From: Coriobacteriia bacterium
Lineage (GTDB): Bacteria; Actinomycetota; Coriobacteriia; Anaerosomatales; Anaerosomataceae
DNA: 64,000 nt
Direction of reading: 5' to 3'
NCBI GenBank assembly: GCA_030651765.1
Contig: JAUSBY010000011.1
Location: 62,001 to 126,000 of the forward strand
In this document: piece after piece, positions 34,480 through 39,602 of the stretch
Numbering within the stretch: the first letter of the stretch is position 1
How the letters are laid out: the number at the start of each line of letters is the position of its first letter
Made by a program: the position numbers and the translations under genes
Notes under the pieces: model-generated
The model's input: the letters and a program-made list of their open reading frames with translations, nothing else
The model's database searches: none
What the model was told of the DNA's origin: nothing

Positions 34480-35580
34480 TCAGCCGAGACGGACAGGCAT
34501 CAGCAGGTAGACGAAACCATCACCCTCTGCCGGTTTCAGTACACCCGGCTTGAGTGGGCTCGTCACCTCGATGGCTACCGTATCGCTCTCGGAGATGGCA
34601 ACACCGTCCAGGAGATAGCCGTGGTTGAACGCGATCTCGACATCTTCTCCTTCCGGTGTGACTTGGATGTCTTCGGTCGCGTCACCAACATCCTGTGTGT
34701 TGGCCGACAGCGTCAGCGTGTGATCACTCGATGAGATCCTCACCCTGAGGGGTGTGTTGTGTTGGGCCATAAGGGACACACGTTTGACAGCCTCGAGGAG
34801 CTCCGCTCGATCGACCACCGCTCTTGTGGTGTACTCCTTCGGGAGTAGTTGGCGGTAGTTGGGAAACGATCCCTCGATGCGCCGGGAAATGAATGTCGTA
34901 TCGCCGAACGAGAAGACGACCTGGTTTTCGGAGACGCCGAGAGAGATGGTCTGCGACGATCCGACGAGCTTAGCTATGTCCTCCATAGCTTTACCCGGAA
35001 CGACGAGTTCGATGTCGCCGACAACCCCCTCAACCGCTACCTCTCGCACACACAGGCGATACGAATCAGTCGCAACCATCTTCAACATGCCTGAGTCGAC
35101 GATCACGAGGATTCCTGTAAGAACAGGGCGTGTCTCATCACGACTGACCGACCGTGAAACCTGATGCACGACGTGGGAGAAGACCTCTGTGGGGAGAGTG
35201 ATCGTGTCGGTGGGTTCCACTTCAGGGAACCGCGGGTAGTCTTCGGCTGATAGCGTCTTGATCGTGAAGTTCGACTGCCCACAGGAGATGGTTGCGGTTC
35301 CGGGTTGCGATGTGTCTATAGTGACCGCCGCCTCAGGAAGGCTGCGGATGATATCAGTGAGCAATTTGCCGGGAACGACGCTCTGTCCTGCCTCTTCAAC
35401 CCGGGCGGTCGCAGATGTCTTGATCGATATTTCGAGATCTGTTGCCTGGAAGACGACTTTGTCACCCTGGGATGATAGATAGATTCCGGAAAGGATGGGG
35501 AGCGTGGTCCGTGAGGACAGTGCTCGTGAGACAGTCGACAGGGCCTCAAGGAGGGTTCCTCTGGCGATCGAGACCTTCAT
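34480..35580 (-). CDS. dnaN: DNA polymerase III sliding clamp, beta subunit
   Basis: 366 residues, ATG at 35580 with GAGGA 6 nt upstream. All three clamp domains are present, beginning MKVSIARGTLLEALSTVSRAL, with the second-domain start ITLPTEVFSHVVHQVSRSVS and the C-terminal YLLMPVRLG. The protein forms a ring that tethers the replicative polymerase. It is separated from dnaA by 232 nt that hold the probable unwinding region of oriC. Confidence 0.97.
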   Translation of the reverse strand: MKVSIARGTLLEALSTVSRALSSRTTLPILSGIYLSSQGDKVVFQATDLEISIKTSATARVEEAGQSVVPGKLLTDIIRSLPEAAVTIDTSQPGTATISCGQSNFTIKTLSAEDYPRFPEVEPTDTITLPTEVFSHVVHQVSRSVSRDETRPVLTGILVIVDSGMLKMVATDSYRLCVREVAVEGVVGDIELVVPGKAMEDIAKLVGSSQTISLGVSENQVVFSFGDTTFISRRIEGSFPNYRQLLPKEYTTRAVVDRAELLEAVKRVSLMAQHNTPLRVRISSSDHTLTLSANTQDVGDATEDIQVTPEGEDVEIAFNHGYLLDGVAISESDTVAIEVTSPLKPGVLKPAEGDGFVYLLMPVRLG

Positions 35581-35616
35581 ACCGCGTCCTCTCTCTTATC
35601 TCTCTTTAGATATCTG

Positions 35617-35637
35617 ACAACAGTAGCAGTAGTAATA
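35617..35637 (-). other. DnaA-trio-like element (probable origin unwinding region)
   Basis: On the minus strand the tract reads TAT TAC TAC TGC TAC TGT TGT. It follows a GCCCC patch and two abutting DnaA-like boxes, CGTACACA-type (35643-35651) and TAATCCACA (35652-35660). Box, GC patch and triplet tract in that order match the B. subtilis DnaA-trio arrangement, where DnaA is loaded onto single-stranded DNA. A TATCT/TTTAGA-rich stretch lies just beyond. Confidence 0.6.
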
Positions 35638-35642
35638 GGGGC

Positions 35643-35763
35643 TGTGTACGGTGTGGATTACGCCTGTTCTCGCTGCTCACCTATCCTGTGGGTACTGTTG
35701 ATGGCTTGTGGGGCGTTTGTACCAATCCATCAACACAATCCACAGATCGCAGAACTATCCACA
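35643..35763. other. DnaA box cluster between dnaA and dnaN (oriC)
   Basis: Boxes: a weak TGTGTACGG (35643-35651), TGTGGATTA (35652-35660), CAATCCACA (35736-35744) and CTATCCACA (35755-35763), compared with consensus TTATCCACA. The 232-nt interval lacks any gene. Together with the triplet tract this is the best candidate for the melting site of the origin. Confidence 0.7.
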
Positions 35764-35812
35764 CCTCCACATAGTTGTCCATGTACCGCCGCACATACTA
35801 TGCACACGTTGT

Positions 35813-37204
35813 TCACGTGCGTTGTCTGACGAGATTAGTGAGCGTCTGAATCTGGTTGTAGACGTCCCTCTGTTCTTTCATCAAGCGCTGGATCTTCGTG
35901 TTCGCGTGGATGACGGTAGTATGGTCTCGTCCCCCGAAGCCAGCTCCGATAGCGGGGAGAGAGAGGTCCGTGAGTTCGCGTGTGAGATACATCGCTATCT
36001 GGCGGGGGAAGACGATCGACTGCGTTCTCTTGTCACCGATTAACTCGTTCTTACTGACGCCATAGAACCTGCAGACCTCCTGCTGGATTGTTGTCATAGA
36101 GATGGGTTTGATGGAGCGCTCGGGGAAGATGTCCTTCAGGACACTATGTGCCAGATCGAGGCTCATCGGGTGGCGGGTGACTGAGCTGAATGCGACAACC
36201 CGCAAGAGCGCACCCTCCAACTCACGGATGTTGTTGGAGAAGCGATCGGCGATCAAGGAGAAGACATCGTCGGGAACGACCAGGTTGTCGGCCTCGGCTT
36301 TGCGGCGAAGGATGGCGATGCGTGTCTCCAGGTCGGGTGGCTGGATGTCTGCAATGAGACCCCAACCAAAACGCGTCCGGAGGCGTTCTTCGATATCGCC
36401 GATCTCGGCGGGTGGCCTGTCCGAGGAGAGCACGATCTGTTTACCAGCTTCGCGCAGAGTGTTGAACGTATGGAAGAACTCGGTCTGAGTCCCCTCTTTG
36501 CCAGCAATGAATTGGATGTCGTCGATGAGAAGCACGTCGTTCTCACGATATGACCGGCGGAAGCCCTCCATCCGGCTCTTGTCACGGTCTCCGATGGAGT
36601 TGATGAAGTCGTTGACGAACTGTTCACTGGAAACGTACTTGACTTTCATATGCGGGTAACTCGCCTGAACATAGGAGCCAATGGCCTGAAGAAGGTGTGT
36701 CTTGCCGAGTCCCGCTCCTCCGTAGATGAACAGAGGGTTATAGGCCGAGCCGGGTGTCTCCGCCGCTGCGAGAGCGACGTGATACGAGAACTGGTTGGAT
36801 GCACCAACGACGAACGAGTCGAATGTGCACTTCGGGTTCAGTTCGATCTCTGTTTGGCGGGCCCCTCGGCGCGTGGTGGTCGGGGGCGCTGAATCAGTCA
36901 ATGCGGGCGGTGCAGCCTCGACAACCTCCAACACCGGCTCGATGACGATGGGAGCGCCAGCCACACTGAACTTCACAGCCATCGGGGATCCGGTGACCTG
37001 CGTGAGGGCAGACGTCAGTAAGCTGGCGTAGCGCGTCTCGAGCCAATCCCTGGCGAAATCATTCTGGACCGCGACGACCATCTCGTGATCGACGATACCC
37101 ATAGGAGACGTCTGCTCGAACCAGGTCTTGAATGTCGGGGTGTTGAGTTCTCCCCGCACAACATCGAGCGTATCCTGCCACACCTGATCCACGTCGAGAA
37201 TCAC
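35813..37204 (-). CDS. dnaA: Chromosomal replication initiator protein DnaA
   Basis: 463 residues, GTG at 37204 with AAGGCGG upstream. Domain I covers residues 1-80 and a short Pro/Thr-rich domain II about 95-115. The AAA+ domain III has Walker [10 protein letters not shown] (162-170), Walker B LLIDDIQF and sensor residues. Domain IV has the DnaA signature [11 protein letters not shown], which reads the DnaA boxes. It starts only 12 nt after the stop of the GHKL-ATPase gene, so both are expected on one transcript. DnaA boxes lie on both sides of the pair. Confidence 0.98.
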
Positions 37205-37216
37205 GAGATCGCCGCC

Positions 37217-38032
37217 TTATCGTCCGAAGAGTGAGTCGAGATAACGGATTCCACGATCCGTGAGCGCGCGCTTACCGGCTTGATCCGATGCAAGGAGGTC
37301 GAGATTCGCCAGGTGTTCGAGATCCCGGTACGCGGTCGACAGGCCCACGCCAAGCTCCCGGCGCACAACGGTGGGACCGAGAGCGCCCAACTCCATTGCG
37401 AGAGAGAGGACTTGCTTCTGACGGAGCGTGAGGGCCACCGAGTCGATGTCGTCGGGCGCGTGGGGCGCTTCTTCCGTGGTCTGCGCCGGAAGTGGTGACG
37501 TCCGTCGGTCCACCTGGATCGTTACCACGGTCCCCGAGCCGAGGTTGTCTTCAACCTCGATAGTCCCACCCGAGAAGCCAAGACACTCTCGCGCCACAGG
37601 TAGCCCCGAGCCCACACCCTTGATGATGCGCTTCATATGTTCCGTGGCTGTCGAGAATCCCGGGAGGAACACCCTGTCCTTGTCAGCGATGCCCGGACCC
37701 TGGTCGGCGAACCTGATCGTCGAGCCGTCATCAAGAATGCTCACAACCACTTCGTCGAAACCGGCGTGAATGAAGTTCTCCACCACTTCACGGATGACCG
37801 CATAAGGAATCGTGCCGCCGGCTGCATGGGAAAGCTCGTACACACGAGTGGCGAGGCTCTCGATCAGGTCCCGAGCACCCGATTCCGTAACCTGCTCGAC
37901 TCGGGGTGGTGCGGTCAACGCGTCGTAGACAGCCACAAGCGCCGGATCCGGGCCGCCGGCCTGCGTCTCTGCCGAGGTTGCCAACGAGCCAGGGACGTGG
38001 GTGTCACTCCCCTCCCGGTAGAAAGTCTTCAT
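37217..38032 (-). CDS. GHKL-type ATPase with C-terminal winged-helix domain, directly upstream of dnaA
   Basis: 271 residues from ATG 38032 (a GTG 9 nt upstream is possible). Residues about 60-195 form a HATPase_c fold: N-box VREVVENFIHAGF, G1 DQGPGI and G2 GVGSGLPVA, then TVVTIQVD. No dimerisation/phospho-acceptor His domain is present, so it is not a standard histidine kinase. After a Pro/Ala/Thr linker, residues about 210-270 look like a winged helix (VVRRELGVGLSTAYRDLEHL). The mix suggests an ATP-sensing DNA-binding regulator or an anti-sigma-like switch. Its place between oriC boxes and dnaA points to control of initiation, which is inference. No established family name is recognised. 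Confidence 0.8.
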   Translation of the reverse strand: MKTFYREGSDTHVPGSLATSAETQAGGPDPALVAVYDALTAPPRVEQVTESGARDLIESLATRVYELSHAAGGTIPYAVIREVVENFIHAGFDEVVVSILDDGSTIRFADQGPGIADKDRVFLPGFSTATEHMKRIIKGVGSGLPVARECLGFSGGTIEVEDNLGSGTVVTIQVDRRTSPLPAQTTEEAPHAPDDIDSVALTLRQKQVLSLAMELGALGPTVVRRELGVGLSTAYRDLEHLANLDLLASDQAGKRALTDRGIRYLDSLFGR

Positions 38033-38065
38033 TTGCGACACCCCCTCGTCCGTCCGTCCACACAT

Positions 38066-38592
38066 TCATCCACATTCCGGTTCTGGCGAGCCGCCAGAGA
38101 AACTGCTGCTAGGCGCCGTATCTTGAAGGCTCGCCCGCCACTTGAGACCTTATGGCGAGACGGCTATGAACAGGCGGTTTCCCAACTATCCACAAGTCTT
38201 TCCACACATGTGGATAGACTTTCCGCCAGTCACATCGAACACCCATCGAACGCGCAGGTCGCAGGTACTTCAGGCAAGGAAACCGGTTTCCAGAACCCGG
38301 CGGCCTGTGGGAATGTGCCAATCGCTGTGGATAGTGATTGGGACACGGCGAAAGACCGGCGAAACAAACACCCGCGAGCTGTGGACAAGATGATCGCCCA
38401 ACACACACGGAGCAGCCAGGCGTTACACAGACACATATCATGAGCAGCAAGTTTTCAAGGAAAGGCCCGCAACGCGAGTGGTCCTGAAGCGGAGCCGATT
38501 CTAGCAGACCGACGGGTGCTCTCACAACGAGGCGTAGGAGGTTATCCACAGCTGAGACCCGCACGAGTCCTGCGTTTTCCACACTGTCCACA
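38066..38592. other. Second DnaA box cluster, upstream of the ATPase-dnaA pair (oriC)
   Basis: The 728 nt between the ATPase gene and rpmH hold no credible gene. Near-consensus boxes are at 38066, 38186, 38198, 38209 (reverse), 38326 (reverse), 38380 (reverse), a perfect TTATCCACA at 38542-38550, then TTTTCCACA at 38575 and CTGTCCACA at 38584. An AT-rich tract (CAGATTTCTGACTATTTTTA) follows at 38591-38610. This is the densest box cluster of the window. Confidence 0.75.
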
Positions 38593-38679
38593 GATTTCTG
38601 ACTATTTTTACGTTGACCCACGCGTCGTCGCGCACACCCACTTTGCAGCAGATACCTGCTCGACACACGCCGCAGCTCG

Positions 38680-38709
38680 TTGACACGCCATGTTTGCCGC
38701 CGCTATAAT
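38680..38709 (+). promoter_or_regulatory. Consensus sigma-A promoter of the rpmH operon
   Basis: TTGACA (38680-38685) and TATAAT (38704-38709) are both perfect matches, spaced 18 nt. The leader to the rpmH GTG is about 45 nt and contains AGGAGGGA. Confidence 0.85.
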
Positions 38710-38760
38710 CGCCAGGCTTGTGCTCGGCTCACCGCCGGAGCACCGATAGGAGGGACCATC

Positions 38761-38907
38761 GTGAAGCGTACGTACCAACCGAACAACCGAAAGCGCGCCA
38801 AGGCGCATGGGTTCCGGAAGCGCATGTCGACGAAGGCGGGTCGCGCTATCCTGGCCGCGCGTCGTCGCAAGGGTCGCACGGTCTTGTGCCCGAGCGCCGC
38901 ATCGTAG
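38761..38907 (+). CDS. rpmH: 50S ribosomal protein L34
   Basis: 48 residues, GTG at 38761 with AGGAGGGA 6 nt upstream. The L34 sequence [20 protein letters not shown] is unmistakable and is followed by [18 protein letters not shown]. Most L34 proteins end in KGRKRLSA; here the end is [12 protein letters not shown], four residues longer and with a cysteine. It heads the rpmH-rnpA-yidD-yidC-jag operon. Confidence 0.96.
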
Positions 38908-38937
38908 TGGATCTCGGCGCCGAACAGGGAGTGCGCC

Positions 38938-39270
38938 ATGCGGACGATCACTGCGCACGCCGACATCGATCGGCTGTTCGCTAGAGGAAGCCGTACGACG
39001 CACCCGGCACTCATAGTCCTGGCCGTCGAAACCCCTGAAGCACGTGACCCGAACGGGCGCGTGCTTTTCGTTGCGGGCAAGAAGTTGGGTTCCGCGGTGA
39101 TGCGGAACCGCAGCAAGCGCGTGATGAGGGCGGCGACGAGGCGTGCTGGAGGATCTTGGCCCGGGTGGGACGTCGCACTCGTCGCGCGGCGGGGGACTCA
39201 CTCGGCCGCGCCCGACGTGATAGACGCGGCGCTCGCAGCGGCTGTCCAGAGGCTCCGGCGCGACCGATGA
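38938..39270 (+). CDS. rnpA: Ribonuclease P protein component
   Basis: 110 residues, ATG at 38938 behind GGGAG. The RNR signature is intact in [15 protein letters not shown], preceded by [11 protein letters not shown]. The protein assists the RNase P RNA in 5' maturation of tRNA. It overlaps the yidD start by 4 nt. Confidence 0.94.
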
Positions 39271-39488
39271 AGAACCCGATGGCGCTCGTGGTTGTGGGCT
39301 TCATACGCACCTACCAGCGCGCGATCTCTCCGTTGCTGCCGGCATCGTGCCGCTTCTATCCGACGTGCTCCAGCTATGCGGTCACAGCGATCACTCGGCA
39401 TGGCCTCGCTCGAGGGGGGTGGATGGCCCTCAAGCGCATCGGCCGATGTCATCCATGGAACCCCGGAGGATATGACCCCGTGCCGTAG
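39267..39488 (+). CDS. yidD: Membrane protein insertion efficiency factor YidD
   Basis: 73 residues, ATG at 39267 inside the rnpA stop (ATGA). Typical YidD motifs are [36 protein letters not shown] and [15 protein letters not shown]. The paired cysteines are conserved in the family. It acts near YidC in membrane protein insertion. Confidence 0.95.
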
Positions 39489-39602
39489 GCGGGCGCGGTA
39501 GTATAGTGTATTGACTGCAACGACCCCCCCCCGACACGCATCGGGAGTGGAGACGATCCCGCATCCTGAAGTCGCGCCACACTGCAAGGAGGTTGGCTTT
39601 CC

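Follow-up and report, generated by a model that had tools for sequence, protein, structure and literature searches.

A GHKL ATPase gene with a winged helix beside dnaA as a candidate regulator of replication initiation

Why should a gene that combines a GHKL ATPase fold with a winged helix stand directly in front of dnaA, and could its product help to control when the chromosome is copied? Apart from E. coli, B. subtilis, Caulobacter and a handful of other bacteria, the control of initiation is an open question. The locus studied here lies in a window of 64,000 nucleotides (the whole stretch of DNA that was analysed) from a Coriobacteriia bacterium, and its central features are the following.

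37217..38032, minus strand: GHKL ATPase-winged helix gene, 271 amino acids, start at 38032, alternative ATG at 38065
35813..37204, minus strand: dnaA, GTG start at 37204, 12 nt downstream of the stop codon of the GHKL gene
38761..38907, plus strand: rpmH, divergent from the GHKL gene

The reading frame, the strand and the 12 nt gap to the dnaA start codon are as described in the initial annotation. Starting at the upstream ATG would give an alternative product of 282 amino acids, but the start at 38032 is favoured because a conserved G-rich stretch resembling a ribosome binding site and the start region are found in relatives. Downstream of dnaA follow dnaN, recF, dciA and gyrB; on the other side of the GHKL gene, and divergent from it, are rpmH, rnpA, yidD, yidC, jag, rsmG, parA and parB. 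DnaA, RecF and DciA were identified by Pfam, and the other neighbours (dnaN, gyrB, rpmH, parA etc.) are presumably what their position and protein features suggest. The GHKL gene is probably the first gene of the dnaA transcript, with the only promoter-like sites on the minus strand at 38527-38498.

Two domains in one protein

37505..37804, minus strand: HATPase_c match, residues 77-176
37889..37942, minus strand: conserved N-terminal strand pair, part of the GHKL domain, residues 31-48 (A34, Y36, D37, P43, R44)
37226..37426, minus strand: winged helix, residues 203-269, with the recognition helix at 231-243 (R236) and K254 and R255 in the wing

HATPase_c is the only Pfam family above its cut-off in the 271-residue protein (E-value 1e-11, 45.7 bits against a cut-off of 26.4) and is present in all 80 family members searched with Pfam, while none of the best 25 NCBIfam families listed for the protein reached its cut-off. 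The boxes of the Bergerat fold are complete, with the N box E82xxEN86, the G1 box D110QGPG114, the ATP lid and the G2 box G139VGSG143. Across up to 177 distinct rows, E82 is conserved in 174 of 176, N86, H89, D110, G112 and G114 in 176 of 176, and G139, G141 and G143 in 177 of 177. The GHKL domain modelled alone from a 57-row alignment reached a pLDDT of 89 and a pTM of 0.86, and matches among solved structures (VIA) were DIP2311 (Z 14.6 over 147 residues), CpxA (11.1 over 114), SpoIIAB (10.9 over 128) and HK853 (10.6 over 118). The N, G1 and G2 boxes and the fold place the protein in the GHKL ATPase superfamily; the nucleotide-binding fold proposed earlier is thus borne out by the Pfam match, the box residues and the predicted structure.

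The position of E82 is that of the catalytic glutamate or base in the GHL ATPases MutL and GyrB and in SpoIIAB. Since E82 lies four residues before N86, as this glutamate does, an active ATPase or kinase is to be expected rather than a dead fold. The suggestion that the protein has no kinase phospho-acceptor domain also held: HisKA is not among the Pfam matches listed for the 80 members, and residues 1-76 were modelled as two strands and one helix. An ordinary two-component kinase is ruled out by the missing DHp domain. The strand pair at residues 31-48 is possibly a dimer or partner surface.

The AlphaFold2 model of the whole protein, made from an 80-row alignment, has a mean pLDDT of 85.6 and a pTM of 0.60, and at this pTM it is uncertain how the two domains are arranged towards each other. 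Only about 30 residues, of low confidence, stand before the GHKL domain. Residues 201-270 form a block with pLDDT 92-98, predicted as helices 203-215, 220-227 and 231-243, strands 247-249 and 255-257 and a final helix 259-269. By sequence this domain of the 271-residue protein stays below the Pfam threshold (HVO_A0261_N 0.008, TrmB 0.13). In structure it aligns with the solved MarR, ArsR, RosR, Csa3 and other proteins (VIA, Z 11-13 over 68-81 residues). The wing residues K254 (165 of 176) and R255 (173 of 176) are conserved and R236 of the recognition helix (158 of 177) is variable, again among up to 177 distinct rows. The model and the two basic residues together give a winged-helix fold with a basic wing. 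The initial annotation had proposed a DNA-binding wing here and had asked for a structure prediction, and in the prediction the C-terminus did fold confidently as a winged helix.

Ten members (L278-L287) are longer, with 364-524 amino acids, and carry the winged helix 73-218 residues after the GHKL domain. The E-values of their second domain range from 1e-7 to 0.12, being weak in L284 and L285 (0.06 and 0.12), and a profile of the winged helix only matched seven of the ten. Such long-linker forms occur in some families of the Coriobacteriia. Their spacing disfavours a rigid allosteric coupling of the domains, and a tether would fit these members better.

Linkage to dnaA, distribution and the origin region

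In 171 of 177 distinct members the gene is directly followed by dnaA on the same strand, and in the other six the locus ends before that point. The corresponding numbers are 17 and three for 20 lower-scoring members and nine and one for the ten long-linker members. Eight of the ten loci that end at a contig end have dnaA in the first bases of the same contig, so that, assuming circular contigs, linkage is found in 205 of 207 members; the remaining two (G095 and G060) end first and there are no contrary cases. This sample comprises the best matches returned, 40 regions chosen for diversity and the 20 lower-scoring and ten long-linker members; duplicates were removed by a 200-nt fingerprint only, the last 30 regions were outside this check, and the same genome may be present in two collections. 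Seven loci with other HATPase genes of the source genome (L002-L008) were left out of the count. The synteny rules out a chance neighbour of dnaA, and a gene unlinked to dnaA in relatives, which would have spoken against the earlier proposal, was not found among the 207.

The gap between the GHKL gene and dnaA has a median of 30 nt and does not exceed 100 nt in 145 of 153 cases. In L050, L071 and L072, dnaN points away and rpmH is found on the far side of dnaA, with the gene, dnaA and the upstream DnaA boxes inverted as a unit; the same gene-dnaA inversion is found in G276 (L049 and L273), giving four genomes altogether. Where the inverted oriC-GHKL-dnaA block sits between dnaN and rpmH, dnaA is followed by rpmH, not dnaN. 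The median identity over up to 80 loci is 50% for the GHKL protein, compared to 54% for DnaA, 42% for DnaN and 43% for RecF. Distances between GHKL proteins track those between DnaA proteins (Mantel r 0.76, 128 members, 0 of 999 permutations), a correlation calculated within family members only and expected of any vertically inherited neighbour. The tight linkage, the common inversion and a conservation at the level of DnaN and RecF argue that the function is linked to DnaA or oriC.

A genome scan gave 454 relatives, of which 80 were kept, with record titles including Coriobacteriia, Anaerosomatales, Candidatus Aquicultor, Thermoleophilia, Armatimonadetes, Terrabacteria group ANGP1, Bacillota, Clostridia and others. 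Within the Coriobacteriia 264 of 296 genomes have a match at an E-value of 1e-8, mostly one per genome. The phyla sampled beyond this class are those reached through matches: 157 of 396 genomes in the phylum of the source genome (1e-15), 31 of 299 (1e-20) in that of L151, a MAG titled Clostridia bacterium, 38 of 43 in that of L150, titled Armatimonadetes and including the genome of L148 (Armatimonadetes CSP1-3), and three of three in that of L146. No relatives were found on plasmids, phages or viral contigs, which rules out a mobile gene. A defence gene was also rejected, PADLOC giving only weak matches to CARF-type winged helices.

We examined 20 of the 32 Coriobacteriia genomes (out of 296) without a match: twelve have no dnaA match in the assembly, two are cut at dnaA and six truly lack the gene. 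In these six (L240-L245), rpmH and dnaA are on one stretch with no GHKL gene in the spacer of roughly 620-980 nt. The gene can therefore be lost and is dispensable in places, and these lineages are natural controls.

The region upstream of the gene has these features.

38033..38760, no strand: putative oriC and regulatory intergenic region between the GHKL gene and rpmH, with seven DnaA-box-like sites at 38066-38583
38186..38217, no strand: the DnaA-box cluster that is conserved best in the intergenic region of 19 family loci, within the part of the alignment listed
38233..38259, no strand: direct repeat GTTCGATG-N3-GTTCGATG with a period of 11, plus ACCTGC (in minus-strand sense), kept in part of the window's family
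38498..38527, minus strand: promoter-like site TTGTGA-18-TAGAAT, with a predicted leader of about 465 nt that runs across the box cluster

Allowing at most one mismatch to TTATCCACA, we found 11 DnaA boxes in the 64 kb, compared to 3.3 expected, and seven of the 11 lie at 38066-38583, so the gene does border the DnaA-box cluster noted earlier and stands between the putative oriC and dnaA. Averaged over 149 distinct upstream intergenic regions, the number of boxes is 5.1, while shuffled sequences give 0.13. Two further DnaA-box-like sites at 35652 and 35755, between dnaA and dnaN (35581-35812), suggest a bipartite origin. The window's family is enriched in words that contain TAGAAT. A structured leader RNA was rejected, with no Rfam match in 35500-39600.

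Beside the DnaA-box cluster, the GTTCGATG repeat with ACCTGC could be a candidate operator or unwinding element. Its core CCTGnnnGTTC is present in 20 of 148 regions, several of which are outside the window's family and clearly due to chance. Scans with k-mers and gapped k-mers in six clades, with the DnaA boxes masked, found no operator common to all lineages and gave promoter-like hexamers and clade-specific words.

Proposed role and alternatives

We propose, with a probability of roughly 0.55, that the protein depends on ATP, is tethered to DNA and regulates the dnaA operon and/or oriC, as a dedicated companion of dnaA. It would be a soluble, probably dimeric GHKL ATPase switch, which the winged helix would tether to DNA in the dnaA promoter or oriC region. 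How the protein is seated on the DNA would change with the nucleotide state of this dimer, or with a bound partner, and this would set the transcription of its own gene and of dnaA and/or the access of DnaA to the origin. We infer that the protein binds and turns over ATP, that it dimerises, which DNA it targets and that it affects dnaA or oriC. Against this explanation in the form of a simple repressor stand the lack of a common operator in the scans, the six losses and the long linkers; the variable R236 also counts against the proposal.

The main rival, which we regard as unlikely, is that the protein acts on DnaA or another initiation protein by contact or phosphorylation, as SpoIIAB does on its partner, and that the winged helix is merely an anchor at the origin. 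The GHKL domain without DHp and its SpoIIAB match are in line with this, as is E82, kept at the N-4 position of the N box; the BCKDK/PDK family of serine kinases aligns with the domain as well, and long linkers would suit a tether for action on DnaA itself. However, the flanking genes identified belong to the oriC cluster and no sign of a partner-switch operon was seen among the genes probed, and for contact with DnaA there is no direct evidence.

Less probable still is that we are dealing with a transcription factor whose regulon is broad or unrelated, and whose place beside dnaA is an inherited accident of a slow-moving oriC cluster. The genes rpmH, rnpA, yidD, yidC, jag, dnaN, recF and gyrB also keep their order, and the absence of an identified operator agrees with such a regulon. 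Yet the gene order at the origin does break in some genomes, those with the inverted units, and there the GHKL gene is still with dnaA; moreover, linkage without exception is stronger than that of DciA or RecF, which were often not found, although weak matches may be missed. The weakest candidate, which we consider improbable, is an origin architecture factor that would aid or restrict the unwinding of oriC or the loading of the helicase there and would hardly affect transcription: the gene is directly at the DnaA-box cluster and ATP-dependent dimer formation is common in GHKL proteins, but nothing separates this reading from the best explanation and six genomes manage without the gene.

With somewhat less than an even chance, the protein might represent a new class of replication-initiation regulators, in which an ATP-driven GHKL switch beside dnaA is tethered to the origin by a winged helix and does what YabA, Soj or Hda do elsewhere. 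The proposed class would span the Coriobacteriia (including gut genera, judging from the class), other classes of Actinomycetota, the CSP1-3 phylum and part of a Bacillota-like phylum. The initial annotation did not recognise a described system, and we agree: no curated family claims the gene, and no description of it was found in the full-text literature as covered by titles and abstracts and by passages of PMC4255298, subscription papers being outside this scope. In the chromosome records L269-L276, which are linearised at dnaA, the GHKL gene is at the very end of the record; this linearisation may be the reason why the gene was overlooked.

We see in the gene a good candidate for a controller of the time of DNA copying that has so far escaped study. 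As it is kept beside dnaA over several phyla at about the conservation level of DnaN and RecF, the question of initiation control is directly testable here. If the proposal is true, origin control would be connected with an ATP-binding fold, and there would be a new way to act on the growth of gut Coriobacteriia.

Comparison with known systems

The best match to the GHKL fold, DIP2311 of Corynebacterium diphtheriae (PDB 3lmm), has an rmsd of 2.8 and a Z 3.5 above the next. Foldseek aligns it with 257-263 columns of the whole model, which suggests a GHKL domain followed by a winged helix, as here. However, DIP2311 is larger (477-556 residues), with an extra part absent from the 271-residue protein, and the identity is 12%. 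We take DIP2311 to be a member of the AlbA_2 / COG2865 'transcriptional regulators' and know of no link to dnaA. The N-terminal AlbA_2 domain is defining for such AlbA_2-GHKL-winged helix proteins; it has no match in the 271-residue protein, and of the 31 families seen in the 80 members, the 25 most frequent do not include it.

The anti-sigma kinases SpoIIAB and RsbW likewise have a free-standing GHKL domain without DHp, and TIGR01925 (SpoIIAB) matches weakly in 38 of the 80 members, although it is not among the matches listed for the window protein. Unlike them, the window protein has a winged helix, which would bind DNA. Anti-sigma factors of this kind are characterised by Ser/Thr kinase or sigma-binding activity and by genes for a sigma factor and a STAS anti-anti-sigma beside their own; the neighbours identified here are replication genes. 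Sensor histidine kinases share the HATPase_c fold and its boxes, whereas the window protein has no DHp/HisKA and no sensor or receiver partner was seen. Its C-terminal fold is that of the MarR, ArsR, TrmB and RosR regulators, but here the winged helix is fused to a GHKL domain and its sequence matches are below the Pfam cut-off.

YabA (PF06156) is below its cut-off in the source genome. To our knowledge, the GHKL-winged helix architecture is found in none of YabA, Soj, SirA, Hda, SeqA and CtrA; what these regulators have in common with the window protein is a role near DnaA or oriC, as we propose for it.
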